Source: Solirubrobacterales bacterium (lineage in GTDB: Bacteria; Actinomycetota; Thermoleophilia; Solirubrobacterales; 70-9). Taken from it: DNA of 64,000 nt. Of the stretch, positions 1 through 24,845 are shown piece by piece. The notes beneath the pieces were generated by a model, which made no database searches, was not told where the DNA came from, and worked only from the letters and a program-made list of their open reading frames with translations. The stretch spans positions 62,001 through 126,000 of the forward strand of contig DATMZR010000036.1 in assembly GCA_035573435.1 (NCBI GenBank), given 5' to 3'. The translations under genes were made by a program, and so were the position numbers. How positions within the stretch are numbered: position 1 is the first letter of the stretch; each line of letters begins with the position of its first letter.

Positions 1-154
1 CGACAACGTTCAGGTGGTTGGGCCGTGAGTCAAGCCACGGTGGCCGCAACGTTCGAAGCGTGGTGTGGCGCCTGTACACTCGGCCGCTGCTCGAGGCCAG
101 AGCCAACCATTGGCGAGGGCGCCAGGAACTCGATGGGCCAAGAGCTCGATTGGG

Positions 155-967
155 ATGATCGATCGCCTGAAGCGCACGCGCCGCCGGGTTCTTCGCCGCT
201 GGCGCTACCGGCACGTGCGCGACTGGATCGTTGGCCCGCCCGACTTCGTCGGCGTCGGTACGCAGCGTTCCGGGACGACGTGGTGGTGGCGGCTGCTCTG
301 CGACCATCCCCGGGTCCACGAGCCGGCGGGCGGGAAGGAGATCCACTTCTTCGACAAGTACTTCGCGCGTGACTTCTCCGACGACGACGTGCGTGCCTAC
401 CACCGAATCTTCACCCGGCCCAAGGGAACGATCACCGGAGAGTGGTGTCCGCGCTACATGCACGACTTCTGGACGCCGGCTCTCCTGCGCAGGGCCGCGC
501 CCGACGCGAAGCTCCTGGTACTACTCAGAGACCCGGTCGGTCGCTATCGGTCGGGCCTCAGCCACGAGCTGGATGTGCTCCAGCGGGATGTGCGGGGTAA
601 GCGCCGCGGGTATGTGGGCGCGATGGACGCGAACGATGCCCTGAGCCGCAGCCTGTACGGCAGGCAGCTGCGGAGGCTGTTCGAGCACTTCGACCGAGCG
701 CAGGTCCTGGTGCTCCAATACGAGCAGTGCGTGCAGGACCCCAGAGCAGAGCTCCGGCGGACCTATGAGTTCGTCGGCGCCGACGTTCCCCACCACGTGC
801 CGACGTTTCTCACCGATCGAGCCGGTCAGTCGCATCCTCAGGTAGAGGTCATGGATGAGGTGACGGAGGCGGCACGCCACATCATCCACAGTGATCTGGC
901 CGAGCTGAAAGCCCTCGTTCCGGAGATCGACTTCAACCTCTGGCCCTCGTGCCAGGCCATCGGTTAG
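155..967 (+). CDS. PAPS-dependent sulfotransferase (carbohydrate type)
   Basis: Predicted to move a sulfuryl group from PAPS onto a hydroxyl or amine, most likely of a sugar chain given the neighbours. With the ATG at 155 the protein has 270 residues, normal for this family. The 5'-phosphosulfate loop GTQRSGTTW lies at residues 35-43 and the 3'-phosphate-binding region RDPVGRYRSG near residue 125, two hallmarks of the heparan/Golgi sulfotransferase fold. An arginine-rich N-terminus (residues 4-22) precedes the domain; no convincing membrane helix is seen. The frame stays open upstream to 65, but those residues look unrelated and there is no good ribosome site there. It converges tail-to-tail, 7 bases apart, with the lyase-like lipoprotein. 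The family call is solid; the acceptor is unknown. Confidence 0.85.
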   Translation: MIDRLKRTRRRVLRRWRYRHVRDWIVGPPDFVGVGTQRSGTTWWWRLLCDHPRVHEPAGGKEIHFFDKYFARDFSDDDVRAYHRIFTRPKGTITGEWCPRYMHDFWTPALLRRAAPDAKLLVLLRDPVGRYRSGLSHELDVLQRDVRGKRRGYVGAMDANDALSRSLYGRQLRRLFEHFDRAQVLVLQYEQCVQDPRAELRRTYEFVGADVPHHVPTFLTDRAGQSHPQVEVMDEVTEAARHIIHSDLAELKALVPEIDFNLWPSCQAIG

Positions 968-974
968 GAACCGC

Positions 975-2075
975 TCAGGGCTGGATCGCCCGCCGCAGCT
1001 CTTGGACCGATCGCCCCCCCCAGGGGTCGCTGGGCGAGTGGGCGAGGACCTCGACGTTCGCATAGTCCCGACTGACTGAGGGCAGGCTTACGTGGTTGTA
1101 AGGGCCGATCGAGAGCATGGCGTAGCTGTCGCCCCCGTTGAGCGTCCCCGAGGTGATCCTCTCCGTCAGGGGACGGTACCGCCAGTAGTTGCTGTCGCCG
1201 TTGGTATCACCCCAGAGCCGGAAAGCGCCCTCGGTCTGATCACTGTCAAATTGGACATCGATGCAGAGGCGCAGCCATTTTCCGCGCGGCACGTCCCGGA
1301 AGAAGTACTCCCTGACGTGCTGGCCCTGGTTGTAATTGTTAACGAGCTTCAGTCCATTCCGACCTTCGAGCATTGAGAGGATTGGACCCCCGTGGGTCTT
1401 GATCTGCCACACCTGTGAGTACTTGGTATTGCCGCCTCCGGGACCGACGTTGTACGGCAGCGGCGTGGGGGCTTGCAGGCGAACACCCATGCAGGTGAGG
1501 CTTCTCGTGCCGGCTCTGTAGCAGTAGAAGGTGTTGCTGCACGACTGGTTTATGAGTTGCGTTCGTGTCGAGTCTCGCTGGTGGTGGAAGTCCCATTCGC
1601 TCTGAGACACAACGCGCGAGCCTGAACGAGGTGTGCCGCTACCTCCTCTTACCCCGATGAAGCGCTGCGCCCTCTTGCCAAGATAGGTCACCTGTGTGTA
1701 CGAACTGCCCTTCTGAATCCACAGGTGGCCGGACGTCGGGAACCCGGCGGTCGACCGAACGTTGAGGCTTAGGCGTGGCAGGGTCTGCGACGCCGACAAC
1801 TTCGTTTCCTCGATCTTCAGCGTCCGGTACCCGTGGTGGACGATGCCGTTGATGTCCGGGTGCGGATCCCCGCCGGTGGCGTGATAGGAGATCAGGGGAT
1901 CCTGCTCGGCCTTGTAGCAGCACGCCCCCTGGTCGAAGGCATCCGAGACCCCACGCCATTCCGAGACCGGATTCGGATTCGTCACTGGATCGCTTTGGAC
2001 CTTGGTGCAGCCGGCGAGGGCGAGCGCGAGTAGGGCGAACAGAGCGCCCAACGAAGCGCGAGGTGCTTGTTTCAC
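975..2075 (-). CDS. Lipoprotein with heparin-lyase-like (concanavalin-like) fold
   Basis: A 366-residue exported lipoprotein. Residues 1-22 form a lipoprotein signal peptide ending in the lipobox LALAGC, so the Cys would be lipidated and the protein anchored outside the membrane. The rest resembles the jelly-roll polysaccharide lyase family that includes heparin lyase I: a segment around YSQVWQIKTHGGP followed by LSMLEGRNGLKL, and later GKWLRLCIDVQF with DTNGDSNYW. These are fold-level similarities; I cannot confirm catalytic residues, so it may bind rather than cleave a glycan. The start is GTG with AGAGAGG five bases upstream. A c-di-AMP riboswitch occupies its leader. The adjacent sulfotransferase and the C5-epimerase at 12.3 kb suggest a uronic-acid-containing substrate. 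Confidence 0.7.
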   Translation of the reverse strand: MKQAPRASLGALFALLALALAGCTKVQSDPVTNPNPVSEWRGVSDAFDQGACCYKAEQDPLISYHATGGDPHPDINGIVHHGYRTLKIEETKLSASQTLPRLSLNVRSTAGFPTSGHLWIQKGSSYTQVTYLGKRAQRFIGVRGGSGTPRSGSRVVSQSEWDFHHQRDSTRTQLINQSCSNTFYCYRAGTRSLTCMGVRLQAPTPLPYNVGPGGGNTKYSQVWQIKTHGGPILSMLEGRNGLKLVNNYNQGQHVREYFFRDVPRGKWLRLCIDVQFDSDQTEGAFRLWGDTNGDSNYWRYRPLTERITSGTLNGGDSYAMLSIGPYNHVSLPSVSRDYANVEVLAHSPSDPWGGRSVQELRRAIQP

Positions 2076-2300: not shown

Positions 2301-2484
2301 GGGCTGTCGAGCGAACCGGAGGCCGTGACCGGTCTCCACGGCGCTCGAAACCCGCGCGGGAGCACGAAGGCAAGGGTCTCGGCGGGCGAGACGGCTCAGC
2401 TGTGGACAGAGGGGAGTCCCCTGCGCTGGGCCATATCCTGCATTGAATGCGCGGCGAGACGCCGACGGAGTAGGGCGGCGCCAG

Positions 2485-3567
2485 ATGAAGGGTGAGCTTC
2501 ACGACAGCCTCGAGTCGATACTGCCGGAGTGGGAGGAGTTGTTCCGCTCCGACCCCGAAGCGACCCCGTTCATGTCACCCGAATGGGCACGAGCGTGGTG
2601 GCCGAGCTGGGGAAGTTCGAGCCGGCCGTGGACTGTCGTCGTTCGCGATAGCGGCCGGCTCGTGGGCCTCGCGCCGTTCATCCTCCGCAGACGCGGCCCC
2701 CTTCGGATCCTGGGGCGGCCCGGCTCACACCCGAGCCAGGACATCCTGGCCACGTCTGAGCTGCGGCCGGCTGTGGCGGAGGAGGTGGTTCGCGAGATCG
2801 TCAAGAGGCGCAGGGAGTGGGACCTTCTGGCGATCAGCTGGTTCCCCGAGACCTCGTCCATCCAGCCCTCGATGAAGCGGCAGGGGCTGCGCCTGCGGGA
2901 GCGCCGTACGGCCACCTACCCTCGGCTCGAGCTTCCTTCCAGCTTCGACGAGTATCTGGAATGGCTTCCGCGCAAGCGCAGAAAGGACCTCAGGCGCCAC
3001 CTTCGCCGACTCGACGACGGTGAGCTCGAGGTCGTTCGGGTCGGGGAGCCGGCGGCGATCGGCGCCGCGGTCGATCGCTGGCATGCCTTGAAGCTGAGCT
3101 GGTGGGAAGCCAAGGAGGACACGGAGATCCACCCCGGGCAGCGTGGCTCGCGATACGTCGGATTCCTGCGGGAGCTGATGCCGCTGATGGTCTCCGCCGG
3201 GCTCGGCGAGGTCTGGGAGCTCCGACACTCAGGACAGGTCGTGGGCGTCGAGGTCAGCCTGCTCGACCGGCGCAACTTCTACTCCTGGCAGGGAGGCTAT
3301 GACCTCGAGGTCGCTCACCTGGGACCGGGAAAGGTCGCGATCGGGGAGGGCATACGGGCTTCGATTGCCGCTGGGCGCCGCTACTACGACCTGATGCGGG
3401 GCGCGGACAGCTACAAGTACTGGTACGGATGCCGCGATCGAGAGAGCCGCTCTCTGCTGATTGGGAACAGCCGTCCGACGTCCCGCGCGGCCCTGCTCGC
3501 GATCGGTCCCTACGAGCGGCTTCGGGGTTCCTCGGGAACCGACTCGCCGGACGGGGCAGGGGACTAG
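2485..3567 (+). CDS. BioF2/CelD-type (GNAT/FemAB-like) acyltransferase
   Basis: A protein of about 360 residues resembling the BioF2-like acetyltransferase domain found in CelD/BcsL proteins of polysaccharide loci, with an N-acyltransferase fold shared with GNAT and FemAB enzymes. Supporting segments are the basic stretch LPRKRRKDLRRHLRRL, the core GEVWELRHSGQVVGVEV, YSWQGGYDLEVAHLGPGK, and the C-terminal YYDLMRGADSYKYWYG. It probably transfers an acyl or aminoacyl group to an envelope glycan or its precursor; the donor is unknown. ATG 2485 is preceded by GGAGTAGGG. An in-frame ATG at 2443 would add 14 residues without a clear ribosome site. Its 3' end overlaps the convergent ATP-grasp gene by 4 bases. 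Confidence 0.75.
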   Translation: MKGELHDSLESILPEWEELFRSDPEATPFMSPEWARAWWPSWGSSSRPWTVVVRDSGRLVGLAPFILRRRGPLRILGRPGSHPSQDILATSELRPAVAEEVVREIVKRRREWDLLAISWFPETSSIQPSMKRQGLRLRERRTATYPRLELPSSFDEYLEWLPRKRRKDLRRHLRRLDDGELEVVRVGEPAAIGAAVDRWHALKLSWWEAKEDTEIHPGQRGSRYVGFLRELMPLMVSAGLGEVWELRHSGQVVGVEVSLLDRRNFYSWQGGYDLEVAHLGPGKVAIGEGIRASIAAGRRYYDLMRGADSYKYWYGCRDRESRSLLIGNSRPTSRAALLAIGPYERLRGSSGTDSPDGAGD

Positions 3568-4721
3568 CCGGCCGCCGGGCGGTCGTTGTCGAGGCCGAGG
3601 CGGGCACGGCGCCCGCGAAACCGGCGCGTTACCGCTCGTGAGGAGAGCAGCAGGGCCGGCATCGGGTCATCTGATGCCCACATCGACCCCGCTCCAGACG
3701 GCATCCGGCGTCTCAGTAGTCGCCGAGGCAGGCCCTGCGCGGCGGCCGCCAAGTCCCCCTTCAGCCAGCGGTAGGTGACCCCGGTCGGGTAGGGGCGCAG
3801 CGGCGGACGTGGGCCGCCGGTGACGACCGCGTGCCACACCATGGGAAGGTTCACCCCGCACGCGAGCGCCAAGGGAAGACAGGCGTAGAAGCGGGGATTG
3901 ACGTCGATCAGGGTCTTCCCCCGCGCGTCGTCGACGAAATCGAGTTGAGCGAGCCCCCAGTAACCAGCCCGTCGCAGGAACTCGGCGGCACGCTCGACGA
4001 GCTCGGGGTCGGGCTCGACGCTCACGGCATAGTTGATCGACCCGGCCTTCGGCGGCCACGTCTCGCGGGCGAGCCCCTGGAACTGCGCAGCCACCTGCCC
4101 GTCCCGATCGAGGACGAGCTCGAGCGAGATCAGCGGGCCGGACGCGTGCTCTTGAACAAGGACCCGCTCCTCCGGGGGCACCTCTCGCCACTCCAGAGCC
4201 GCCCGCAGCTCCTCCTCGGTCTCGATGACCTTCGCCGAGCCCAGGCGCCCGACCGGAGCGGCGGGCTTGATCACGCTGGGAAGCGGTATCGACGACTCCA
4301 AGAGCTCGGCGACCGTCGCTTCGGCGATCGCAGCCGGGGACCTCAGTCCCACCTCGGCGGTAAGGGCCTCCAGCCCGGGCTTCTCGCGGATCTTGCGCAA
4401 AGCATCGTTCGTCGGGAACGGGAACATGACCTCGGGCGGCATTTCCGCCAAGTGCTCGACGATCGCGTCGATGCTCTCCTCCCGGCTGGGGTAGACGACG
4501 AGCGGGCCGCGCTCCCTTGCAACGCGCGCGATCAGGTCGACGTAGGCCTCGGGGCTCGCCACGGCGTCAGGACCGACCTCACGCTGCCTCGTGTAGCGCG
4601 ACCACAGTCCGGCGGCCGACCGATCGGGGCCGAGCGCGATCACCCCGATGCCGCCCCGGCCCAGCCCTCTTACGCCGGCGACCGCCGGGGCCAGCTGTAC
4701 ATCCGTTACCAGGGCGTCCAA
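3564..4721 (-). CDS. ATP-grasp carboxylate-amine ligase (first of three)
   Basis: A 385-residue ATP-grasp enzyme, expected to activate a carboxylate as acyl-phosphate and join it to an amine. The Rossmann-like N-terminus (VTDVQLAPAVAGVRGLGRGG) is followed by the ATP-grasp lobes, seen in VIKPAAPVGRLGSAKVIE near residue 150, RVLVQEHASG near 205 and the Mg-binding LIDVNPRFYACL near 290. It is related to the carbamoyl-phosphate-synthase-like ligases that often occur in actinobacterial polysaccharide loci. The best start is TTG at 4721; no in-frame ATG lies nearby, so the exact N-terminus is uncertain. It is divergent from the FAD oxidoreductase. Substrates cannot be read from sequence; uronic-acid carboxyls plus amino acids are a reasonable guess. 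Confidence 0.8.
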   Translation of the reverse strand: MDALVTDVQLAPAVAGVRGLGRGGIGVIALGPDRSAAGLWSRYTRQREVGPDAVASPEAYVDLIARVARERGPLVVYPSREESIDAIVEHLAEMPPEVMFPFPTNDALRKIREKPGLEALTAEVGLRSPAAIAEATVAELLESSIPLPSVIKPAAPVGRLGSAKVIETEEELRAALEWREVPPEERVLVQEHASGPLISLELVLDRDGQVAAQFQGLARETWPPKAGSINYAVSVEPDPELVERAAEFLRRAGYWGLAQLDFVDDARGKTLIDVNPRFYACLPLALACGVNLPMVWHAVVTGGPRPPLRPYPTGVTYRWLKGDLAAAAQGLPRRLLRRRMPSGAGSMWASDDPMPALLLSSRAVTRRFRGRRARLGLDNDRPAAG

Positions 4722-4823: not shown

Positions 4824-5990
4824 ATGGCACGACGCCCTCGCATAGTTGTGATCGGCGCCGGAATAATCGGCACGAGCATTGCCTCGCGGCTCGCGGGTCG
4901 CGGCGCATCCGTGACGATGGTCGAGGCAGCGCTCCCCGGCGCCGGGACGACGGGCACGAGCCTGGCCTGGGTGAACGCCAGCAGCAAGCTCGATACAAGC
5001 CGGGAGTACTTCGACCTCACCGTCAGAGCTACGGCTGAGCACCATGCCCTCGCGGACGCACTTGGCGAAACGCGCACCTTCCATCCCACGGGCAACATCG
5101 AGATCTCCCGCCAACCCGAGGACGCAGATCGCCTGAATTCGAAGGTCACACGGCTCCAGGAAAGGGGATATCGCGCCGACCTCGTTCCCATCCGAGAGCT
5201 GGGGCAGCTGGAACCGGGCCTCAAATTGCCCGCGACAGCCGTTGCCGCTTATTACGCCGACGAGGGGTGGGTGGACGGACCGGCGATGGCACGGGCGCTG
5301 CTGGAGCGCGCCAGGCGTTCGGGGGCAAAGGTTCTCCTGCAGACGGCGGCGAAGCACCTCGTGCTCAAGAACGACGCGGTCGCGGGAGTCGCCCTGGCGG
5401 GTGGGGAAGCAGTCCGCGCAGACACCGTCGTCGTTGCGACCGGCCCATGGACGCAGGACTTTCTCGCTCGCCTCGGTGTGGAGGTTCCGCTGGCGCATGG
5501 CGAGGACGAGGGGTCAAAGGCGTTCGGCCTCCTGGTCACCGTGCTGCCGACGGCGGGAAGTCCAAGCACGGTCCTGCATAGCCGTGAGGTCAACTGGGCG
5601 CCCCGGCCTTCAGGGCATGCCGTCCTTGCGAGCGCCGGGGCGGACCGCGTGATCGCAGGTGATCGCTCGGCGGAGACGGTCAGGGCGGCGGCGAACACGC
5701 TGCTGGAGCGGGCGGCGGATCTGAGCGCGCGCTTCGCCGACGCGAGCTTCGAGCAGGCGCAGATCGGCTTGCGCGCCCTCCCGATCGACGGGTGGCCGGT
5801 CTGCGGCTGGATCGACTCGATCGATGGTCTCTACGTGGTCGTGACGCACAGCGGGATCACCCTCGCTCCGCTTCTGTCCCAGCAGGTGGCGGAGGAGATC
5901 GTCGAGGGAGGCGAAGCATCCGCCCTGAGTCCGTTCCGGCCTTCGCGGTTCGATGGCGCCGCCGGCGAGCGCGCCCCGGCCGACCAATAG
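4824..5990 (+). CDS. FAD-dependent amine/amino-acid oxidoreductase (DAO/DadA family)
   Basis: A 388-residue flavoprotein. The N-terminal dinucleotide fold is clear: RIVVIGAGIIGTSIASRL at residues 5-22, with VTMVEA closing the second strand. The second FAD contact VVVATGPWTQDF lies near 205 and the C-terminal GLYVVVTHSGITLAPLL completes the D-amino-acid-oxidase-like fold. Family members oxidise amines, D-amino acids, sarcosine or opine-type secondary amines. Given a nearby opine-dehydrogenase-like protein, an N-alkyl amino acid substrate is possible, but this is inference. No ribosome site adjoins ATG 4824; GGGAGG lies about 30 bases upstream, so the N-terminus or leader is unusual. It converges with the second ATP-grasp gene. 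Confidence 0.85.
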   Translation: MARRPRIVVIGAGIIGTSIASRLAGRGASVTMVEAALPGAGTTGTSLAWVNASSKLDTSREYFDLTVRATAEHHALADALGETRTFHPTGNIEISRQPEDADRLNSKVTRLQERGYRADLVPIRELGQLEPGLKLPATAVAAYYADEGWVDGPAMARALLERARRSGAKVLLQTAAKHLVLKNDAVAGVALAGGEAVRADTVVVATGPWTQDFLARLGVEVPLAHGEDEGSKAFGLLVTVLPTAGSPSTVLHSREVNWAPRPSGHAVLASAGADRVIAGDRSAETVRAAANTLLERAADLSARFADASFEQAQIGLRALPIDGWPVCGWIDSIDGLYVVVTHSGITLAPLLSQQVAEEIVEGGEASALSPFRPSRFDGAAGERAPADQ

Positions 5991-6015: not shown

Positions 6016-7212
6016 TCACCGCCGGAAGACCTTTCCGCGCAGCCAGGCGCGGAACGGGCCGAGGTCATCGCGAGCAAGCCAATGCAATTCCTGGACTCCG
6101 CGGACTGACTTGACCCACTCGCGCACGCTGACGCGATCCTCCCCCCGACTGGGGAAGACCGCGCGGAGGTCGCGCTCGTCCAGCCACTTCCTCCCATCCT
6201 GAGCCGCGGTATCACCCATCGGCTGCCCGGAAAGGTCCTGGTAACAGAGGCGAACGACGTCGAGACCGTTGGCGCCGGTGAAGAGACGGAACACGCTGCT
6301 GACCCGCGCGTTGACGTCCAGCACCTTGTACGTACCGTCGCGAACGTCGTGGCGCCATCCAACCCCACAGCAGCCGCGATATCCCAACGCAGTCATGAAA
6401 CGGTACGTCTGACTCGCAACTGTGTCGTTCGACTCAACCTCCGCCAACGATGCGGTTCCCATCGAGGACAACTGGCGGAGCTTCTTTCCGGTGAACACGA
6501 CGCCATGACCGTCGTCGCGTCCGAAATAGCCATTGCACATCCAGACGTTGTCGACACCGCCTGGGATGTGTTCCTGCAGTACGAAGTTCCATGTTTCGCG
6601 GGACACGGCTTCTTCAATCGCGTCGTCCAGCTCGGGCTGCGACCGAGCGATCGTGTTTTCTGGGGCGGGCAGAAACGGATCGGCCGCTTTTACGACCAGC
6701 GGAAACCCCGTCCTTGCCGCAAATTCGTCGATCTCCGCGCGAGAGGTTGGTTGCACGGTGACGGGCGTTGGAATGTCGTGCTGCGTCGCCAGCACGTGCA
6801 TGTCCCACTTGTTCAGCAGCCTCCCCACAATCGAGGAGGCAGGTCGAGGAAACTGAAAATAGTCGGCCAAAGCCTCGCTGTGGCGTTCGAAAAAGATCGC
6901 AACCCAATCGTTGGTCGTGAAAAGGATCGGGTGCGAACCGTGCTTCTTCGCCAGCTTCGACCCGACATCCCGAAGGAGCTCAACCGAATCCAGCTCGGGT
7001 CGCTCAAAGAAATCCCATAGCGTCCTGTCCTCCCAGTAGCGCGAAGAAAATACGGGTGACAGAGCCGTATTTTCCGGCGCGACCGGATACACGGAGACTC
7101 CGAGGCGGCCAAGCGTGCGGGCAATGGCGAGGGGTCCGTAGCTCTGGCGGCCGCGGAACACGACCACGGCGGGTACCTGGGTATCAACGACTGGTACCTG
7201 GGTATCGATCAA
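6016..7212 (-). CDS. ATP-grasp ligase (second of three), coupled to the opine dehydrogenase-like gene
   Basis: A 398-residue ATP-grasp protein of the same class as its neighbours. Visible parts are the N-terminal FRGRQSYGPLAIARTLGRLG, the ATP lobe FPLVVKAADPFL near residue 172, FVLQEHIPGGVDNVWM near 205 and the metal-binding VLDVNARVSSVFRLFTGANG near 300. The stop of the upstream opine-dehydrogenase-like gene is only 3 bases before the TTG start, so the two are almost certainly translated together. The first 14 codons contain a 21-bp duplication (DTQVP twice); GTG codons just after it are alternative starts. It likely links a carboxylate and an amine supplied by, or resembling, the partner's product. 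Confidence 0.8.
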   Translation of the reverse strand: MIDTQVPVVDTQVPAVVVFRGRQSYGPLAIARTLGRLGVSVYPVAPENTALSPVFSSRYWEDRTLWDFFERPELDSVELLRDVGSKLAKKHGSHPILFTTNDWVAIFFERHSEALADYFQFPRPASSIVGRLLNKWDMHVLATQHDIPTPVTVQPTSRAEIDEFAARTGFPLVVKAADPFLPAPENTIARSQPELDDAIEEAVSRETWNFVLQEHIPGGVDNVWMCNGYFGRDDGHGVVFTGKKLRQLSSMGTASLAEVESNDTVASQTYRFMTALGYRGCCGVGWRHDVRDGTYKVLDVNARVSSVFRLFTGANGLDVVRLCYQDLSGQPMGDTAAQDGRKWLDERDLRAVFPSRGEDRVSVREWVKSVRGVQELHWLARDDLGPFRAWLRGKVFRR

Positions 7213-7215
7213 GGT

Positions 7216-8466
7216 CTATCGCACCCGCTGGGCCTCGAGAGCCGCCTCGGCGCTGTACCACCGGATGAGCTCGTCCGGAGAGAAGATCCCGTGGTTCTGT
7301 GGAGTTGGGAGATCTGCCACGTCGGGTCCTTCCAGCCGGCCGTCGGCGAGGTAGCCCTTGTCGAGAACGCCCTGCGCCCACGAAATGACCTCATCGATCA
7401 TTGGTGTCTCGACCGCGGCGATGTCCGCGAGCGCACGGGTGATCACCAGCCCGTAGGGGACGTCCTCCGTGAGGGAGCGGTATTGGAAGTTCGGAGTGAA
7501 TCTCCCGGGCGTCAGCTCGACCATCGGTGTGCGCCGCTCTTGGATGGGGCCGGTTCGAAAGCACGTGGCGACCGTGCTCGAGTCGGCGGTCACGTGAGCG
7601 TATGAGGCTCGCAGCCAGTCGTGAACGGACTGGACGTGGTCGAGGCGCAGCGCCCTCTCGGTCTTGTCTCTCAGCGCGTGAGCGACAGCAAGTGCCTCGG
7701 CAGACATGCGTTCAACGACCTCTCCCATCTCATCAGTCGCCTCTGCGTACAAGAAGGGGACCGAATCGGCGTCGTACTCCTCGCCGCTCCAGGACCGAAA
7801 ATGCCCGTACATCAGGCCTGTGTGTATGACCTGGCCCTGGTTGCCGAGAGTCAGGCTCAGGAAGCTCGCTGCGGGCGCGAGCCGCGTTCCAAAGATCTGG
7901 GACAGCTTGCGCGCCAGATGTTCACCGGAATCGGGCGGCAGCGATGCGATGGTCCCCTCCGCCTTCGCTGCGCCGATGTTCACGGCCTCACCCGGCTTCA
8001 CGATTCGTGTCGACCAGGGGAGGGTCTGCAGGCCAAAGATCGTCTGGCGTTTGGAGCCGCGACGAGGAAGATGCCGCGCAGCCTCGAACTCGAACCCGCC
8101 TCGCGTCGGCAGGCACCCCACGGGGGTTTCATCGCCGAGGTGCGTCCCTATCCGGCGCAGGACCTCAGCGTGAGCAAAAGCCGGTACGGCGAGCAAAACC
8201 ATATCTGCGTTCGGGATCACCTCCGCGGGATCTGAGGAGATGGTTCGCAGCCGATCCGCCTCCGCCTGGATGACCCCTGTGGAGCGGAGACCGTCGCGTG
8301 ACCGGCCCCCGTGAAGGAGGTCGGCTCTCTCTGGTGAGCTGACCAGCCAGTCGACGTGGGCGGTGAAACGCTGTGAAAGGACTACCGCGAGGGCGTGCCC
8401 GGCGTTGCCGCCTCCGCAGATCGTGATGACGCGGGTTTCGTCGGCTGATTCACCGGTCTCGCTCAT
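7216..8466 (-). CDS. NAD/NADP octopine/nopaline (opine) dehydrogenase family protein
   Basis: A protein of about 416 residues. The N-terminal nucleotide-binding fold starts with VITICGGGNAGHALAVVLSQ, and the helical C-terminal domain has the family-typical segment YRSLTEDVPYGLVITRALAD near residue 340. Opine dehydrogenases condense an amino acid with a 2-oxo acid and reduce the imine with NAD(P)H, giving a secondary-amine dicarboxylate. Fold and family are well supported; the true reaction is unknown. ATG 8466 is chosen; an in-frame GTG at 8496 would add 10 residues. It is the first gene of a two-gene unit with the ATP-grasp ligase 3 bases downstream and is divergent from the methyltransferase. 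Confidence 0.8.
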   Translation of the reverse strand: MSETGESADETRVITICGGGNAGHALAVVLSQRFTAHVDWLVSSPERADLLHGGRSRDGLRSTGVIQAEADRLRTISSDPAEVIPNADMVLLAVPAFAHAEVLRRIGTHLGDETPVGCLPTRGGFEFEAARHLPRRGSKRQTIFGLQTLPWSTRIVKPGEAVNIGAAKAEGTIASLPPDSGEHLARKLSQIFGTRLAPAASFLSLTLGNQGQVIHTGLMYGHFRSWSGEEYDADSVPFLYAEATDEMGEVVERMSAEALAVAHALRDKTERALRLDHVQSVHDWLRASYAHVTADSSTVATCFRTGPIQERRTPMVELTPGRFTPNFQYRSLTEDVPYGLVITRALADIAAVETPMIDEVISWAQGVLDKGYLADGRLEGPDVADLPTPQNHGIFSPDELIRWYSAEAALEAQRVR

Positions 8467-8575
8467 CGGGCGCCGAACGCCTCGGTTACGCCGCACTGGC
8501 TTTGCATGCGCTCGATCATAGGTGGCCCTGCGGCCGATCGTGCCGCCCTCCGGGTGCCGGCGTCAGCCGGTGTCC

Positions 8576-8592
8576 CTTTAGGCGCGCTAAAG
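8576..8592. promoter_or_regulatory. Inverted-repeat operator candidate CTTTAG-GCGCG-CTAAAG
   Basis: Perfect 6-bp arms flank a 5-bp centre in the 181-bp divergent region between the opine-dehydrogenase-like gene and the methyltransferase. A GC-rich imperfect hairpin (GGTGCCGGC...GCCGGTGTC) lies just upstream. The site could regulate either direction. Confidence 0.35.
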
Positions 8593-8647
8593 GTTTTCCC
8601 GTGAACCTGGTATGCGCGCGAATCGGCGCTGGTTAGGACTGAGCGAT

Positions 8648-9436
8648 ATGGGTAGCAAGTTTGTGGGCATGAGCAGGGACGAAACAGAAGTCATTCGTCA
8701 TCACTGGGACCGGCGCGCTCCGACCTTCGACGAGCATGCCGGCCACGGGCTCTTCAGCGACGACCAACGACGCGCCTGGCTCGAGTTGTTCGCCCGCTTC
8801 TCAGAGCGGCCGCACGAAGTCCTCGACGTCGGGTGTGGAACCGGCTTCATCGCTCTCAGATTCGCGGAGCTCGGACACGCGGTCACGGGCATCGATCTTT
8901 CGCCTCTGATGATCGACCGCGCCGAAAGCAAGGCCCAGAGGGCGGGACTCGAGATCGACTACCGGGTTGGAGACGCGAGCGCGCTCGATTACGAGGACGA
9001 GACCTTCGACGTCGTCGTCGCACGCCACGTCGTCTGGAACCTGCCCAGTCCTGAGCTGGGCGTCGCGGAATGGCTCCGCGTCCTTCGCCCTGGGGGCCGG
9101 CTCCTTGTCATAGAAGGCAAATGGGCCGACAATCAGGCCGCGGAGACCCACAGGCAACGGAAGAAGCGCTTGAAGGACAGATTCAAGGACGCCATCGTCG
9201 AAATCTCCGTGCGCAGCGGTATTCGTCCCAAGCGACTGCGCAGGACTCACCGTTTTTATCGCCGGGTGGAGAGGGACCTGCCATTTTCGGGCGGACCAAC
9301 AGCGGACCGCCTTGTCGACCTACTGCGGCGGCTGTCTCTGGCCGACATCGAAGTCGAGCCTCTCATGGATCCGACTCTCTGGGGTGAGGAGCTGGAGTTC
9401 CCGCGGTATCTCGCTTCGGCGACCCGGCTGGACTGA
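8648..9436 (+). CDS. Class I SAM-dependent methyltransferase
   Basis: About 262 residues with the standard class I fold. Motif I VLDVGCGTGFIALRFAELG sits near residue 58, the acidic second strand GIDLSPLM follows, then DYEDETFDVVVARHVVWNLP near 110-130 and the post-motif LRVLRPGGRLLVIEGKW. This is the ubiquinone/small-molecule type rather than a nucleic-acid enzyme. Start choice: ATG 8648 has TAGGAC eight bases upstream, consistent with the leaderless style seen elsewhere; ATGs at 8612 and 8669 are alternatives. Lying between the opine-dehydrogenase-like gene and the third ATP-grasp gene, it may methylate a component of the same product. Confidence 0.8.
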   Translation: MGSKFVGMSRDETEVIRHHWDRRAPTFDEHAGHGLFSDDQRRAWLELFARFSERPHEVLDVGCGTGFIALRFAELGHAVTGIDLSPLMIDRAESKAQRAGLEIDYRVGDASALDYEDETFDVVVARHVVWNLPSPELGVAEWLRVLRPGGRLLVIEGKWADNQAAETHRQRKKRLKDRFKDAIVEISVRSGIRPKRLRRTHRFYRRVERDLPFSGGPTADRLVDLLRRLSLADIEVEPLMDPTLWGEELEFPRYLASATRLD

Positions 9437-9497
9437 CAGCGACTGACTGAGGCGCCAGGGAGGTGACCTGCCGACCGGAAGGCTAGGGTACGCCGCC

Positions 9498-10724
9498 GTG
9501 ACCCCGGACGAGAATCCTCCGGCGGTCACCTTTGGCGGCGAAGGGATCGCCTTTCCGGTTGTGCGCAGCCTCGACCGGGCGGGCGTGAGGGCCTATGCCG
9601 TCGGAGGCGACCCGGAGTACAACCCGATTGCCTACTCGCGCCACTGCGCCGGGTACACCGACCTGGGCAGCAAGGAGGGGGTGGTGGACCGCTGGCTGGA
9701 CTGGCTGGCCGGGGAGGCCCCGCGCGGCGCCGTGTTGATGCCGTGCAACGACGACAGCCTGGACCTGATCGTTCGCCACCGAGCGACGCTCGAGGAACTG
9801 GGATACGTGCCGGTGGAAGCGGACGACGAGGTGCTGGCGGCGATGCTCGACAAGGAGCGGACGTACGAGCTCGCCCGCGCGGCCGGCGTCCCGACACCCC
9901 GCACGTGGACCATCGGGAGCGGCAGTGACCTCGACGAGTCGATCGAGGAGATCGGTTACCCGTGCGCGCTGAAACCCCTCCACACCCACCTGTTCGCGCG
10001 GGTCTTCGGCGTCGGATTCAAGCTGCTGGTGGCGAACGACCGCCGCGAGCTGGAGGAGGGGCTGAGCCGGATGACGGCCCTTGGACTGGAGATGGCCGTC
10101 ACCGAGATCATTCCGGGACCCGAGACCGAGCTGCTCTCCTACTGCGGCTACCTGGACGAGCGCGGCGAACCGCTGACCCACTTCACCTTCCACAAGCTCC
10201 GGCAGTACCCGCCCCATTTCGGTCTCGGGTGCTACGTCGTCAGCGATTGGAACCAGGAGGCGATCGACGCCGGGCTCCACTTCCTCCGGGGGGTGGGGCT
10301 TCGCGGCCTCTTCCATGTGGAGTTCAAGCGTGATCCCCGCGACGGCCAGCTGAAGCTCTTGGAGTGCAACCATCGCTTCACGATCGAGACGATGTTCGCC
10401 GCTACCGACCTGCCGTTACTGACCTATAACCGACTCCTGGGCCGCCCGCTGCCGCCCGCCCGCCCTTACAAGTCGGGAGTGCACCTGTGGAGCCCGGTGC
10501 CGGACGTTCGGGCCTTCCTTGCGTACAGACGGCGCGGAGAGCTCACCTTCGGACGGTGGCTGTTGAGCCTGATGCACCGGCAGCGCTTTCATGCCTTCAG
10601 GTGGGACGACCCGCTGCCCACGATCCGCCACCACCTCACGCTGGTGGGGCGGGTCATACGGCGGCTGCTCTTCGGACGACGGCAGGTGCGCGAGGAGGAC
10701 CCGCTGCTCGCGTCCGGGCGGTAA
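9498..10724 (+). CDS. ATP-grasp ligase (third of three)
   Basis: A 408-residue ATP-grasp enzyme. The N-terminal FGGEGIAFPVVRSLDRAGV is followed by central domain segment MLDKERTYELARAAGVPTP near residue 118, ATP-binding YPCALKPLHTHLF near 153, ITEIIPGPETEL near 197 and the metal site LKLLECNHRFTIETMF near 285. The last feature, LLECNHR, replaces the DVNPR/DVNAR seen in the other two copies, so this is a distinct subgroup. The GTG start is preceded by TAGGGT at 9484-9489, a plausible -10 box. The flippase gene follows 58 bases later on the same strand, tying this ligase to the polysaccharide export genes. Confidence 0.8.
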   Translation: MTPDENPPAVTFGGEGIAFPVVRSLDRAGVRAYAVGGDPEYNPIAYSRHCAGYTDLGSKEGVVDRWLDWLAGEAPRGAVLMPCNDDSLDLIVRHRATLEELGYVPVEADDEVLAAMLDKERTYELARAAGVPTPRTWTIGSGSDLDESIEEIGYPCALKPLHTHLFARVFGVGFKLLVANDRRELEEGLSRMTALGLEMAVTEIIPGPETELLSYCGYLDERGEPLTHFTFHKLRQYPPHFGLGCYVVSDWNQEAIDAGLHFLRGVGLRGLFHVEFKRDPRDGQLKLLECNHRFTIETMFAATDLPLLTYNRLLGRPLPPARPYKSGVHLWSPVPDVRAFLAYRRRGELTFGRWLLSLMHRQRFHAFRWDDPLPTIRHHLTLVGRVIRRLLFGRRQVREEDPLLASGR

Positions 10725-10782
10725 CGGTCGGGACGCGGACCTGCACCGGTAATTGGGGCACCCCGTAACGTGCCCACCGGTT

Positions 10783-12336
10783 ATGAACGAGAAGGACTCT
10801 CAGGCTCCCCGCGAGCTGACCGGGACGGTCGTGCGCGGCGTCGGCTTGGCCGGTGGCGGATACCTGATCACTCAGGTGATCAACTTCGCCATCTACCTGG
10901 TGCTGGCGCGGCTCGCCACGCCCACCGATTTCGGCCAACTGGCGGCGGGCGCCGTGGTCGTGCTCGCCGGGCTCTCGTTGGCCGATTCCGGCCTCAACGC
11001 GGCAGTCGTCCAGCGCCGCGACCGGATCGAGGAGGCGGCGAGCACTGCCGTAGTGGCAGTCGTGCTCAGCGGCGTCCTGTTCACGGCCGCGGCGCTCGCG
11101 ATCTCCCCGCTGATCGGCCGCCTATTCCACAGCCACGAGGTGACCCTGGTGGCGGCTGCCTCCTCCGGCTGGATCCTCATCCGCTCGTTCGCGATCATCC
11201 CGGACTCCATGCTCCAGCGGCGCTTCTCGTTCCTGCGCCGGGCGGTGATCGACCCTCTGGGCATGGTTGTGTTCGGGGCGGTCGCAATCGCGACCACCGC
11301 GGCGGGCATGGGGGTCTGGGGGCTCGTCCTTGGCAACTACGCCCAGTTCACGACCATGGCCGTGTCGTCGTGGGTGCTGGGGCGGTGGCGACCGAAGCTG
11401 CGGCTCGCGTCGGTGGCGATGTGGCGGGAGCTGGTCGCCTTCGGGCGCCACGTCATGACTTCGAACATGCTCGTTCGGCTCGGTGGGGTGATCCAAACGT
11501 CGCTCATCGGGCGCCTCTTCGGCACGGACACGTTGGGCCAGTTTCGATACGGGTCTCGCGTCACCTCGTCACCACTGGGGGCATTGATGAACGCAGGTTC
11601 CTACGTTCTCTATCCGGCCCTTTCGCGGATCTCGGACGACGCGCGGAGATTCGAGCGCGGATTCCTGCGCTCGGTCCGCCTGACGTGCGCGACCGCGATG
11701 CCGTTGAGCTTCGCGCTGCTGCCGCTCGGGGTCCCCATCGCGCTCGTCGTCTTCGGGCCGCAGTGGCGGGAGGCGGGCGAGCTCATCAGTGCGATGTTCG
11801 CCTACTCCGGAGCGCGCGCCTTCATCTCCACCACCAGGGAGACGTTCAAGGCGTCGGGTCGGTCGGAGCGCTTGACGAGGATCCAGCTCGTCTCCTTCGT
11901 GCTCACCCTGGGCCTGATCGTCGCCTTCTCATGGATCGGACCGGTCGGGGTTGGCATCGGCATCTCTCTCAGTTCGATCGGCACCGCGGTGTACGCGACA
12001 CGAGCCGTCTCCCCGATCACCGGGGTCCCGGTGCGACGCATCGCAGCCGAGATCTGGCCGCCCATGGTTGCGTCGGCGGTGATGGCGGCCGCAGTCTTCC
12101 TGGCGCAGCTCGCAGTCGAGCCAGAGGCTCATGGCACCGCGGTGGGGATGATCCTGTTGGCCGGGGATGTGTTGTTGGCAGGCGTTGTCTATCTCGGAGC
12201 GCTGACCGTGATCGCGCCGGGGACCGCTCGGGAGCTGCGGGAGATCATGAGCCAGCTTCGTGAGCGCCTGCCGTGGCGCCGGGCTTCCGCCTCCGCCGTC
12301 GAGCCGGAATCGAACGCAGCTGTTCCCAACCCCTGA
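10783..12336 (+). CDS. Wzx-type polysaccharide flippase (MOP superfamily)
   Basis: A protein of about 517 residues with 12 or more hydrophobic helices, of the Wzx/MviN-like polysaccharide transporter type. The opening VRGVGLAGGGYLITQVINFA and the later LARLATPTDFGQLA are typical of this family, which flips undecaprenyl-diphosphate-linked oligosaccharides across the inner membrane. The C-terminal 40 residues are hydrophilic and basic. ATG 10783 is used; the frame is open to a TTG at 10753, but that would add an unlikely N-terminus. It ends 10 bases before the convergent C5-epimerase gene. Confidence 0.88.
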   Translation: MNEKDSQAPRELTGTVVRGVGLAGGGYLITQVINFAIYLVLARLATPTDFGQLAAGAVVVLAGLSLADSGLNAAVVQRRDRIEEAASTAVVAVVLSGVLFTAAALAISPLIGRLFHSHEVTLVAAASSGWILIRSFAIIPDSMLQRRFSFLRRAVIDPLGMVVFGAVAIATTAAGMGVWGLVLGNYAQFTTMAVSSWVLGRWRPKLRLASVAMWRELVAFGRHVMTSNMLVRLGGVIQTSLIGRLFGTDTLGQFRYGSRVTSSPLGALMNAGSYVLYPALSRISDDARRFERGFLRSVRLTCATAMPLSFALLPLGVPIALVVFGPQWREAGELISAMFAYSGARAFISTTRETFKASGRSERLTRIQLVSFVLTLGLIVAFSWIGPVGVGIGISLSSIGTAVYATRAVSPITGVPVRRIAAEIWPPMVASAVMAAAVFLAQLAVEPEAHGTAVGMILLAGDVLLAGVVYLGALTVIAPGTARELREIMSQLRERLPWRRASASAVEPESNAAVPNP

Positions 12337-13350: not shown

Positions 13351-14520
13351 ATGAGCAGGACCCCAAAGGCACGAAAGCTTCGCCATCTGACCCTCGTCGA
13401 CCGGATCGGCTCCTTCGGCGGGGGAGAGCGGCTTGCCGCCGAGTTCTCGAAGCGGCTCTCACCTGAACGCTTCGACAGAATTCTTTGTGCAACACGCTGG
13501 GGACCCGAGGTCGAGTCGCGGCCGACCCGGGCGCAGGCGGTCGACGATCTCTCTGAGCACGGCGTCAGGTTCGTCGGCCTCGACCGCAGGCACGCCCTGG
13601 GCCTGCGGTCGTGGCGAGAGCTCCTGCTGTTGATGCGCCGGGAGCGGATCGACGTCCTGCACGCGCACAAGTTCGGCTCAAATCTGTGGGCCGCCCTCCT
13701 GGGGCCACGCGCGGGCGTGCCGCTGATCGTCGCCCACGAGCACACGTGGTCGTTCGAGGGCGGCGCCCAGCGGCGCTTCATCGACCGCCAGGTGATCGCC
13801 CGTCGCTGCGACATGGTGGTGGCGGTCTCTCGCGAGGACCGGCGCAGGCTGGTCGAGCTCGAGGGGCTACCCCCGGAGCGCGTGGTCTACATCCCGAACG
13901 GCATCCCCGCGCCGCCACCTCCGACGGGAGCCGTGCAACGCGCCGGCCTCGGCCTCCACGAGGACGATCTCGTGGTTGGGACGGTGGGCGTCCTTCGGCC
14001 CCAGAAGGCGCTGGACGTCCTCGTCAAAGCGGCCGCGATCCTGCGCGGGGAGTTTCCCAGCCTGCGCGTCCTCATGGTCGGCGCCGGACCGGACTACGGG
14101 ACGCTCGAGAAGCTGATCGATGACCTCGACCTCTCGAACACGGTCAGCATGCTCGGCTTCCGCACGGACGTCCCCGAGCTGCTGCCGATCTTCGACGTGG
14201 CAGCATCTTCATCCGACTTCGAGGGCAGTCCCCTGGCGGTCCTGGAGTACATGGAGGCGGGCCTGCCCGTGGTCTCGACCAGGGTCGGCGGGGTCCCTGA
14301 CCTGGTCGAAGACGGGGTCACGGGCCTGCTGGTGGACCGGGGGGATCCCGGGGCGCTCGCGCGCGCGATCGCTGAGCTGCTCCGCGACCCCGACCGGCGC
14401 GCTCGGATGGGACATGAAGCCCGTGAACGGCGGCGGCGCGAGTTCGACATCAATCACACGGTCGAGCGCATCGAGCAGCTCTACGAGGATCTCTGGCGCG
14501 ACAAGGCTGGAGCCGGCTAG
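13351..14520 (+). CDS. Family 4 glycosyltransferase
   Basis: A 389-residue GT-B fold retaining glycosyltransferase. The N-terminal acceptor domain starts with VDRIGSFGGGERLAAEFSKR. The donor domain has VGTVGVLRPQKALDVLVKA near residue 210, VLMVGAGPDYGTLEKL, and the GT4 signature SSDFEGSPLAVLEYMEAGLP near 288-306 with the conserved E-x7-E pair, followed by VGGVPDLVEDGVTGLLV. It probably adds a hexose or uronic acid to the lipid-linked repeat unit. It is divergent from the C5-epimerase, and its end overlaps the convergent Wzy-like gene by 4 bases. Confidence 0.88.
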   Translation: MSRTPKARKLRHLTLVDRIGSFGGGERLAAEFSKRLSPERFDRILCATRWGPEVESRPTRAQAVDDLSEHGVRFVGLDRRHALGLRSWRELLLLMRRERIDVLHAHKFGSNLWAALLGPRAGVPLIVAHEHTWSFEGGAQRRFIDRQVIARRCDMVVAVSREDRRRLVELEGLPPERVVYIPNGIPAPPPPTGAVQRAGLGLHEDDLVVGTVGVLRPQKALDVLVKAAAILRGEFPSLRVLMVGAGPDYGTLEKLIDDLDLSNTVSMLGFRTDVPELLPIFDVAASSSDFEGSPLAVLEYMEAGLPVVSTRVGGVPDLVEDGVTGLLVDRGDPGALARAIAELLRDPDRRARMGHEARERRRREFDINHTVERIEQLYEDLWRDKAGAG

Positions 14521-15914
14521 GTCGGTGCAGGGCGCCGCTCGATCCTCCGGGAGACCGCGAGCAATGCCGGGCCGATGGCGAGCAGCAGCCATAGCACCTT
14601 CGAGTATTGGTCGGAGAGGAAGAAATCGGCGGCGAGCAGGGCCAAGATGGCCACGATCACCGCGCGGGTTATGAGCTCCATCTCGCCGTCACCCAAGCGG
14701 GCGAAGCGCCGTGCCGCCAGGACAGCAGCTCGCAGCGATCCTGCGACGATCAAGAGGAAGAGGCACAGGCCGACGACCCCGAGCTCGGCCAAGAAGCCCA
14801 GGTAGATGTTGTGAGCGACATGGGGCTCGTCCACCACGTACTTGTCCTGCTGAAGCGCCCCGGGCTCGACCAGGAGGTAGTGGATCGAGGAAACGGGGAA
14901 GTTCCCTGCCCCGACGCCCGTGACCGGGTTCGCTTCCACCATCCGCCACCCGACCTTCCAGATGTCGGTCCGCCCGCTGCCGCCGTCCGCCTCGAACAGC
15001 CTGTGCCCCGCGGCGGGAACCACCGCCGTGAAGTACCCGATCGCGATCACCGCCACGAGTAGCGCCAGGCTGGCGGCCAGGAAGCGTCGCCCGCGCGCGA
15101 CGAGCACCGTCGCCACCATCGCCGCGCCGAGGGCGAACAGGCCACCCCTGGAGACCGTGAAGAAGATGCCGAGCAGGGTGATCGTGGCCGCGGCCGCGGC
15201 CGCGAGGCGGACCGCGCTCGATCGTGCGCTGCTTGCTGCCAGCGCGATCGAGAGCGTGAAGCCGACCACGAGCACCGATGCCAGCTGATTGGGATCGCCA
15301 ATCGTGCCGGCGAGCCGGTTGAGCCCGCTGGCGGAGGTCGGTCCTGTCGCGTAGCCGGCTGCGCTGGGCTGCGCGACGATGCCGTAGAGCCCGGCGATCA
15401 CGGCGCCGGCGACGAGCGCTCCGATCAAGGCGCGCACTTGCTTGCGGCTTTGGATCGCCGTGAAGACCACCAGGAACAGCGCCGCGTTGAGCACGTAGCG
15501 GAGCAACGCGGAGGTCGTGGCGCCCGGCTGCTCGGCCCAGATCGTGCTCATCGTGACCCAGAGGAGGAACAGTGCGATGCACCAGGACATCCACGGGTGG
15601 ACCGCCCAGAACAACTCTTCCGACCGGTCCCGGGTGGCGATTCTCGCCAACCAGGAGATCGCCAGCGCGAGCCCCGCGAGCTTGGTGATGTTCACCGCCA
15701 GGCCCGCCCCCGGCGTCAGGCTGAGAAACGTGATCAGCGTGAAGAGCACCAACCCCGAGGCCAGGTCCGCCGTGGCGATCAGCACGAACGCAATGCCGAA
15801 CGCTGCGAGGATCGCCAGGGTCGGGTCGCGGCCGGCGAGGAGGCCGATGGCTGCGGCCGTGGCCCCGAAACCCGCGGCGAATCCCCAGTTAGGCCCTGCC
15901 AGCCTGCCTACCAA
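14517..15914 (-). CDS. O-antigen ligase/Wzy polymerase-like membrane protein
   Basis: A 465-residue polytopic membrane protein with about 11-12 helices. The large periplasmic loop contains GRTDIWKVGWRMVEANPVTG and VAHNIYLGFLAELGVVGL, the conserved signature of the WaaL/Wzy_C family, whose members polymerise repeat units or ligate glycans. Because the gene directly follows the Wzz-kinase gene (11 bases apart, same strand), polymerase is the more likely role. The best start is TTG 15914, with no strong ribosome site, suggesting coupling to the upstream gene. Confidence 0.82.
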   Translation of the reverse strand: MVGRLAGPNWGFAAGFGATAAAIGLLAGRDPTLAILAAFGIAFVLIATADLASGLVLFTLITFLSLTPGAGLAVNITKLAGLALAISWLARIATRDRSEELFWAVHPWMSWCIALFLLWVTMSTIWAEQPGATTSALLRYVLNAALFLVVFTAIQSRKQVRALIGALVAGAVIAGLYGIVAQPSAAGYATGPTSASGLNRLAGTIGDPNQLASVLVVGFTLSIALAASSARSSAVRLAAAAAATITLLGIFFTVSRGGLFALGAAMVATVLVARGRRFLAASLALLVAVIAIGYFTAVVPAAGHRLFEADGGSGRTDIWKVGWRMVEANPVTGVGAGNFPVSSIHYLLVEPGALQQDKYVVDEPHVAHNIYLGFLAELGVVGLCLFLLIVAGSLRAAVLAARRFARLGDGEMELITRAVIVAILALLAADFFLSDQYSKVLWLLLAIGPALLAVSRRIERRPAPT

Positions 15915-20566: not shown

Positions 20567-20631
20567 GATTGCGGACCTGGAGGAGCCAGCGGGCGTCTTC
20601 GTCCCATTGGGGCGTGCGAGACTTGGCTCTC

Positions 20632-21918
20632 GTGGCCGAGCATCGTGTGGAGCGCACCGCCTCTTATGAGGCAGACCCCGAACAGCTGGGGCGCGTCCTG
20701 CTGCTGTATTCCGGGGGCCTTGACACCTCGGTGATGCTGCGCTGGATCCAGGAGCGCTATGGGGCCGAGATAGTGACCCTCACCGTCAACCTGGGTCAGC
20801 CCGGGGAGGACTGGGAGGTGGTGGTCGGCAAGGCCCGGGACCTCGGAGCGCTGGACGCGATCGTGGTCGACGCTCGCGAGGAATTCGCGCGCGACTACGT
20901 GCTGCCTGCGATCAAGGCCAACGCGCTCTACGGCGGCGGCTACCCACTGTTCACGGCGCTCGGGAGGCCGCTGATCGCCAAGCTCGCGGTCGACCACGCC
21001 CGGCGCGCGGGCTGCGACACGATCGCGCACGGCTGCACGGGAAAGGGCAACGACCAGGTGCGGATCGAGGCGACGGTGGCCACTCTCGATCCCGAGCTGG
21101 GGGTGATCGCACCGGTGCGGGAGTGGCGCATGGGACGTGAGGAAGAGATCGCCTACGCTCGGCAGCACGGGATCCCCGTTAAGGGCGGCACCGAGGCGCC
21201 GCCGTACTCGATCGACGACAACCTCTGGGGGCGCTCCTCGGAGGGCGGCGCGATCGAGGACCTGGACGAGCCGCCCCGCGACGACGTCTTTCAGCTGGTG
21301 GCGCGCCCCGAGGACGCCCCGGACCGCCCGCAGGTGGTCCGGGTCGGGTTCGAGCGCGGATGTCCGGTGACGCTCGACGGCCAGCGACTCGGCCTCGTCG
21401 AGTTGCTCGAGCGCGCCGCTGAGCTCGGGCGGCGGCACGGGGTCGGAGTCGTCGACCAAATCGAGGATCGCGTCGTCGGGCTCAAGGTCCGCGACCTCTA
21501 CGAGGTGCCGGCTGCGGCGATCATCCTCACGGCCCACCGCGAGCTCGAAAGGCTGGTGTCGACCAGCCACCAGAACACCTGCAAGCGGGCGCTGGAAGAC
21601 AGGTGGGCGTACCTGTGCTACGCCGGGCTCTGGTACGAACCGTTGCGTGCGGACCTCGATGCGTACATGGACTCCGCGAACGAGCTGGTCACCGGGGAGA
21701 TCACGGTGAAGCTCTACAAGGGCTCGGCAACTCCCGTGGCGCGCAGCTCGCCCAACGCGCTCTATGACCGCTCGCTCGCCTCTTTCGGCGAGTCGGGGGG
21801 CGAGTTCAGCCAGGCGGCGAGCCCTGGGTTCATCGAGCTGTTCACCCTTCAGACTCGGATGGCGCACCGGATCCGCGCCCGGGCCGGCGAACAGCGAAAC
21901 CAGACGAAGGAGGAGTGA
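20632..21918 (+). CDS. argG: Argininosuccinate synthase
   Basis: Joins citrulline and aspartate with ATP hydrolysis to AMP, the penultimate step of arginine synthesis. About 428 residues. The ATP loop YSGGLDTSVMLRW is near the start, then VTLTVNLGQPGEDWEV, ALYGGGYPLFTALGRPLIA and HGCTGKGNDQVRIEATV, all diagnostic. The protein is somewhat longer at both ends than the common 400 residues. The N-terminus is uncertain: the frame is open to 20569, GTG 20614 and GTG 20647 are alternatives, and GTG 20632 is preferred because GAGACT sits eight bases upstream. Its stop overlaps the next small gene (TGATG). Confidence 0.92.
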   Translation: MAEHRVERTASYEADPEQLGRVLLLYSGGLDTSVMLRWIQERYGAEIVTLTVNLGQPGEDWEVVVGKARDLGALDAIVVDAREEFARDYVLPAIKANALYGGGYPLFTALGRPLIAKLAVDHARRAGCDTIAHGCTGKGNDQVRIEATVATLDPELGVIAPVREWRMGREEEIAYARQHGIPVKGGTEAPPYSIDDNLWGRSSEGGAIEDLDEPPRDDVFQLVARPEDAPDRPQVVRVGFERGCPVTLDGQRLGLVELLERAAELGRRHGVGVVDQIEDRVVGLKVRDLYEVPAAAIILTAHRELERLVSTSHQNTCKRALEDRWAYLCYAGLWYEPLRADLDAYMDSANELVTGEITVKLYKGSATPVARSSPNALYDRSLASFGESGGEFSQAASPGFIELFTLQTRMAHRIRARAGEQRNQTKEE

Positions 21919-24821: not shown

Positions 24822-24845
24822 GGGATTTACGTTGATTCGCGGTTA

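Follow-up and report, generated by a model that had tools for sequence, protein, structure and literature searches.

The opine dehydrogenase gene and its predicted substrate

We analyzed a stretch of 64,000 nucleotides from a Solirubrobacterales bacterium, a soil-type actinobacterium (hereafter, the window; G000:C36:62001-126000 of a 2.58-Mb assembly), in which a gene for an opine dehydrogenase is followed, after an intergenic gap of 3 bases (7213-7215), by a gene for an ATP-grasp ligase, here called AG2. The pair lies in a polysaccharide cluster, and the dehydrogenase appears to occupy the slot that genes for ComA and ComB hold beside relatives of AG2. The range picked out by an earlier sequence-only reading, 6016-10724, holds these two genes together with a methyltransferase gene and a further ATP-grasp gene, AG3. 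The pair and its nearest partners, in window coordinates, are as follows.

7216-8496, reverse strand: opine (octopine-type) dehydrogenase, PF02317; open reading frame of 426 amino acids, likely start ATG 8466 (416 amino acids)
6016-7212, reverse strand: ATP-grasp ligase AG2, PF02786; probable start TTG 7212
8612-9436, forward strand: class I S-adenosylmethionine (SAM) methyltransferase (Methyltransf_11), oriented divergently to the dehydrogenase gene; in genomes G003 and G383 an orthologue lies close to the dehydrogenase
4824-5990, forward strand: DAO-family (glycine oxidase-like) oxidoreductase that depends on flavin adenine dinucleotide; the G003 dehydrogenase has an orthologue nearby, and G383 has a 34-36% relative

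The sequence-only reading had called an opine-dehydrogenase-like gene 3 bases from an ATP-grasp ligase gene, and both calls and the spacing held. The dehydrogenase reading frame matches PF02317 (Octopine_DH) at 100.9 bits (E 9e-29, cut-off 30), and phmmer aligned its residues 24-410 with Pecten octopine dehydrogenase (OcDH, 3c7a; E 8.9e-39), while the Arthrobacter enzyme ArODH (1bg6) reached only 58.6 bits. A close relative is located on another Solirubrobacterales contig (class Thermoleophilia), and the same-genus genome G003 (locus L008) has start codons matching ATG 8466 and TTG 7212. In the numbering of the 426-residue frame, the catalytic H225 and D345 and the NADH (reduced nicotinamide adenine dinucleotide) sensor R340 are kept and the active-site W294 is aligned, these roles being assigned as in PMC2924402 and PMC10787698. 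The window enzyme thus resembles OcDH, ArODH and the metagenomic opine dehydrogenases (mODHs) of PMC10787698 in whole length, catalytic His/Asp and Trp. It differs from the known enzymes in its coupling to an ATP-grasp ligase gene within a polysaccharide cluster.

Two pocket residues point to the substrate. R132 and G221 align with ArODH positions 111 and 198, where ArODH has Ala and Asn and OcDH has Gln. According to PMC10787698, the double change Ala111Arg and Asn198Gly cost ArODH its activity on phenylalanine and brought activity on aspartate, and natural mODHs with Arg and Gly at both positions, as in the window enzyme, favor acidic amino acids, with aspartate and cysteic acid among the best. 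Of 15 aligned dehydrogenases, the four from the window, G003, G383 and G606 have both residues, and the other 11 do not. Because R132 and G221 match this acidic-type signature, the predicted substrate is an acidic amino acid (aspartate, glutamate or cysteate) rather than lysine or arginine.

We take Gln118 and the Glu of FETLPW to be the arginine-pocket residues of octopine dehydrogenase; neither is kept in the window enzyme. Since R132 and Q157 replace them, arginine is an unlikely substrate. Arginine genes flank the polysaccharide cluster but were rejected as evidence for an arginine substrate, given the differing pocket residues; in the ~7 kb readable on one side of the G003 locus, no arginine gene was seen by eye. 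Predicted structures were too poor for use (mean predicted local distance difference test score 37.5 for AG2 alone and 39.6 for the dehydrogenase with one relative), and the viral contigs searched held no relative of the dehydrogenase and none of AG2.

The ligase AG2 and the ComA/ComB slot

AG2 matches PF02786 at 29.4 bits (cut-off 19.8), and its motifs QEHIPGG and DVNAR, presumably the metal- and ATP-binding motifs of the ATP-grasp fold, are aligned. At the start of the gene, window 7145-7212 holds two near-identical copies of ~21 bases (encoding DTQVPVV and DTQVPAV), of which G003 has one. AG2-like matches at 1e-20 were found in 111 of 399 genomes of the class; most of these lack a close dehydrogenase, and the family therefore does not need an opine.

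To describe the surroundings of the family we took 12 of the best 13 places after the window's own (G177 left out) from the matches in these 111 genomes. A ComA-like gene stands at 10 of the 12 loci and a ComB-like gene at the same 10, with neither at L048 and L053; all three ComA-like proteins tested in Pfam belong to PF02679 and all three ComB-like ones to PF04029. In nine of these ten loci, 18-99 bases separate the ligase match from whichever of the two genes is closer; in L047 the distance is 4.7 kb. Six of the ten (L044, L045, L046, L049, L050 and L051) also have methyltransferases of a single kind, and in L050 each of the successive genes for ComA, ComB, ligase and methyltransferase overlaps the next by 4 bases. 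In tblastn searches with window genes, relatives of its glycosyltransferase, Wzy, Wzz or GNAT genes were found at 7 of the 12 loci. ComA itself is present in 212 of the 399 class genomes. A chance figure of ~4e-20 for ComA at 10 of 12 loci, computed for 1.3 ComA copies per 2.9 Mb with the loci taken as independent, overstates the strength of the association, as several loci come from related genera.

A group of ComA-like, ComB-like and ATP-grasp genes, often joined by a methyltransferase gene, thus recurs in Thermoleophilia (L050:6399-10067, L042-L047, L049, L051 and L052), several times next to polysaccharide genes, and no description of it was found in the literature searched. In three of these loci, all from one genus, DAO-family oxidases lie near ComA and ComB (L044:10051-11304, L046:7056-8357 and L047:16037-16990), which may parallel the window's flavin oxidase.

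The window shares with this group the ligase family, a methyltransferase and a setting that often includes polysaccharide genes, and differs in having an opine dehydrogenase where ComA and ComB would stand. No ComA was found in G000 (the window genome), G001, G002 or G003. In G003, AG2 is closely followed by the start of a methyltransferase gene that the contig end truncates; over 75 residues this fragment is 47% identical to the L050 kind, against 31% to the window's own methyltransferase, giving an order of dehydrogenase, AG2, methyltransferase to set against the ComA, ComB, ligase, methyltransferase of the relatives. In a tree, the AG2 proteins of the window and G003 fall in a clade (support 100/99) with the ten ComA-linked ligases, L048 and L053, and AG1, AG3 and two plasmid relatives fall outside it. 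When the AG2 relative of G786 was added, the three dehydrogenase-linked ligases (window, G003 and G786) formed a clade of their own (98/100). Eight alignment columns (211, 226, 254, 257, 281, 283, 305 and 342), among them Gly283 versus Asp, Ala254 versus Thr and Ala257 versus Gly, separate these three from all ten ComA-linked ligases, and all eight sit in the C-terminal half with the ATP-grasp motifs. Because AG2 relatives pair with ComA and ComB, G003 keeps the AG2-methyltransferase order and the window genome has no ComA, the dehydrogenase appears to occupy the ComA/ComB slot, a placement that is well supported at the level of sequence, if in few genomes.

ComA makes phosphosulfolactate and ComB makes sulfolactate from it. 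Sulfolactate has a carboxylate and no amine, so the ligases linked to ComA and ComB most likely activate a small acid as acyl donor.

Distribution and polysaccharide surroundings

The dehydrogenase is rare and patchily distributed. Among 61 genomes (the window's own and its relatives), strong matches occur only in G000 and G003, with weak ones in two others; among 399 genomes of the class, close copies occur only in G000 and G383, with weak matches in six more. At 1e-20, only G000 and G606 pass among 396 genomes of the phylum, and G000, G003, G383 and G786 pass in a search of 232 genomes of the order.

The gene order in G003 is GNAT, ATP-grasp 1, flavin oxidase (split over two frames), methyltransferase, dehydrogenase, AG2. 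Identity to the window is 73% for the dehydrogenase and 61-62% for AG2, and these two genes are separated by 4 bases. In G383, which belongs to another family, the dehydrogenase (57%), methyltransferase (55%) and flavin oxidase (34%) all lie within 9 kb on the contig of L006. The genes beside the dehydrogenases of G003 and G383 are the best genome-wide matches to the flavin oxidase and methyltransferase of the window. In G786, of the same family as G383, an AG2 relative (50% identity) stands head-to-head with the C-terminal part of a dehydrogenase; the pair is adjacent but rearranged, both genes are fragments, and an assembly error is possible. AG2 thus adjoins the dehydrogenase in three of the four genomes from the order search (G000, G003 and G786).

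In G606 (L022), the neighbors of the Arg/Gly-type dehydrogenase are a GntR regulator, a GlmL-like B12 protein and a TRAP transporter, a setting that suggests another use of the same opine chemistry. A glutamate mutase label given to the B12 protein by eye was dropped, since Pfam and NCBIfam support only the GlmL-like part and a weak B12 domain; the protein was not counted as proof of an acidic substrate.

The polysaccharide setting claimed in the sequence-only reading was confirmed by the following genes around the dehydrogenase-AG2 pair.

65-967, forward strand: sulfotransferase family protein
2443-3567, forward strand: GNAT/FemAB-like Acetyltransf_6 protein; counterpart in G003
3564-4721, reverse strand: ATP-grasp protein AG1, of a branch other than AG2's; 28% counterpart in G003
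9498-10724, forward strand: ATP-grasp protein AG3, of a branch other than AG2's
10753-12336, forward strand: Wzx-type flippase, PF13440
12347-13495, reverse strand: D-glucuronyl C5-epimerase family protein, PF06662
13351-14520, forward strand: family 4 glycosyltransferase (GT4)
14517-15914, reverse strand: Wzy/O-antigen ligase-like protein (Wzy_C), PF04932
15925-17559, reverse strand: Wzz and tyrosine-kinase-like chain length protein, PF02706
17698-18843, forward strand: second GT4 glycosyltransferase
20569-21915: argG, right flank of the polysaccharide cluster

The cluster (L007 and window 1-20566) is flanked on the left by argC, argJ and argB (reading frames named by eye) and on the right by argG; the left group also includes a class-III aminotransferase, read as argD. 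Three polysaccharide-lyase-like proteins (PF14099) are encoded at window 975-2075 (reverse strand), L007:16303-17676 and L007:17805-18947, the latter two scoring above the cut-off and the first below it. Lying near the C5-epimerase and the sulfotransferase, they make a uronic-acid-containing, perhaps sulfated glycan possible.

A proposed role for the opine and its alternatives

We propose that the dehydrogenase uses pyruvate or a related 2-oxo acid to convert an acidic amino acid (aspartate, glutamate, possibly cysteate) into a polyanionic opine of the N-(1-carboxyethyl)amino acid type. AG2 would then activate a carboxylate of the opine with ATP and couple it to an amine-bearing sugar intermediate, the simplest candidate being an amino sugar, and the Wzx/Wzy system could export the opine-bearing sugar as part of a surface polysaccharide. 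In this scheme, the dehydrogenase would stand in for ComA and ComB, the usual partners of AG2's ligase family; the methyltransferase and flavin oxidase might alter the opine itself or provide the 2-oxo acid for it. The opine is cast as acyl donor by analogy with sulfolactate, the putative donor of the ComA/ComB-linked ligases, and the arrangement has a chemical precedent in alanopine on 4-amino-4,6-dideoxyglucose (Qui4N) in Providencia alcalifaciens O35, cited by title in the reference list of PMC10609480. As a whole, this mechanism is tentative, and we would place it somewhat short of an even chance. The sequences themselves support the protein families, the catalytic residues, the adjacency of the two genes and its conservation, the ComA/ComB slot and the polysaccharide cluster; activities, substrates, the direction of ligation, the link to the glycan and the parts played by methyltransferase and oxidase are predictions. 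A wider proposal, which we regard as possible but more doubtful, is that Thermoleophilia possess an undescribed module, with exchangeable parts, by which surface glycans are capped with small polyanionic acids; it would be composed of an acid cassette (ComA and ComB, or an opine dehydrogenase), a dedicated acyl-donor ATP-grasp ligase and often a methyltransferase. The window would then carry the opine form of this module, with an exchanged cassette and a ligase pocket altered to match.

Several results weigh against an opine-decorated glycan. The main one is that G383 has the dehydrogenase together with the methyltransferase and oxidase and lacks AG2 (no AG2-like gene in the genome at E 1e-5), which speaks against a strict dehydrogenase-ligase unit; its contig also shows no match to the polysaccharide genes of the window, so the opine may serve elsewhere than in a glycan too. 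The intact dehydrogenase-AG2 pair is found in only two genomes of one genus, and one of these, G003, is only 72% complete, making the absence of ComA there weak evidence. The Arg/Gly switch is known from distant dehydrogenases (1bg6), and the substrates of the ComA-linked ligases are putative as well. Finally, the scan of window genes turned up neither an aminotransferase nor a sugar deacetylase that would point to the amine acceptor.

The G383 arrangement also favors a different explanation, in which the dehydrogenase works with the methyltransferase and flavin oxidase as a small-molecule module of its own, making a free or modified opine and merely situated in a polysaccharide region, with AG2 using another acid. 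The three genes there stand without AG2 and without the polysaccharide genes of the window, and the methyltransferase and oxidase are the best matches in that genome. We consider this unlikely, though a serious contender, as AG2 adjoins the dehydrogenase in three of the four order-search genomes and is found without a ComA partner in G000 and G003. Less probable still is a catabolic or redox role for the opine as a substrate, with the dehydrogenase running in reverse or as a sink for NADH. The catabolic-looking setting of the G606 enzyme would suit such a role, but the neighbors in the window and in G003 are ligases and polysaccharide genes, and no uptake system was seen among the window genes scanned. 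An opine metallophore of the staphylopine type, offered as an alternative in the sequence-only reading, is the least credible. A secreted acidic opine would bind metals, and a dehydrogenase beside a SAM-dependent enzyme superficially resembles CntL/CntM of the opine zincophore pathways (CntK/L/M). However, ten proteins scanned at the locus include no nicotianamine-synthase family match and no metal-uptake transporter; the SAM-using enzyme is a generic Methyltransf_11 protein accompanied by a ligase, whereas CntM systems are described with CntL and transporters in PMC7438024.

The remaining alternative concerns the direction of ligation. The sequence-only reading had offered the dehydrogenase and an ATP-grasp ligase as a simple genetic basis for a glycan decoration. 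The coupling stood, being present in G000 and G003 and rearranged in G786, but the chemistry proposed for it did not fare as well. In that chemistry, AG2 would activate the carboxyl group of a uridine diphosphate (UDP)-uronic acid and couple it to the amino group of the opine, the polarity of the N-(1-carboxyethyl)lysine amide-linked to uronic acid in Providencia rustigianii O14. PMC10609480 documents this amide, and with it the claim that opine amides occur on bacterial glycans; at the locus, the C5-epimerase and polysaccharide-lyase-like proteins suggest uronic acids. Against it, close relatives of AG2 stand beside sulfolactate-making genes, whose expected product has no amine to be acylated, and the only amine of an opine built from an acidic amino acid is secondary, which makes it a poor acceptor. 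We therefore judge this polarity improbable. The Providencia O-antigens are like our proposal in that an opine is amide-joined to a surface glycan; they come from a different phylum, and the window opine is predicted to be acidic.

Chemistry has already revealed opine decorations on bacterial glycans; if the opine is indeed the acyl donor of AG2, then the window provides a candidate gene pair for one. It would also add a class-wide ligase family with a concrete substrate prediction from two residues, exemplify a pathway that changes its building block by swapping the cassette before a conserved ligase, and make the polarity of ligation testable. The literature searched, which for the most part did not include subscription papers, yielded no paper naming genes for opine decorations of glycans, none joining opine or octopine dehydrogenase, or phosphosulfolactate synthase, with ATP-grasp proteins, and none on an ATP-grasp amide ligase with glucuronic acid capsular polysaccharide; judging from search listings, no sulfolactate decoration of a polysaccharide or glycan was reported either.

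Some further observations concern the methyltransferase and relatives of the dehydrogenase. A general dehydrogenase-methyltransferase pairing was considered on the basis of two Burkholderiales plasmids, in which a methyltransferase lies beside a 31% dehydrogenase, and was rejected: their methyltransferase gave no match to that of the window at E 1e-5, and their dehydrogenases lack the Arg/Gly pair. The two haloarchaeal plasmid relatives of the window methyltransferase that were inspected have no annotated dehydrogenase of this family nearby, and the window methyltransferase thus belongs to a widespread enzyme family. On Burkholderiales plasmids (L009 and L010), two different opine dehydrogenases occur alongside a phytanoyl-CoA dioxygenase, a methyltransferase and a tyrosinase. 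Genes read by eye as encoding an MFS transporter-like protein and an HD-GYP-like protein adjoin each other both at window 23514-26491 and at L006:5077-7736 in G383, with identities of 47% and 45% between the two genomes, and in G383 they lie directly beside the methyltransferase.

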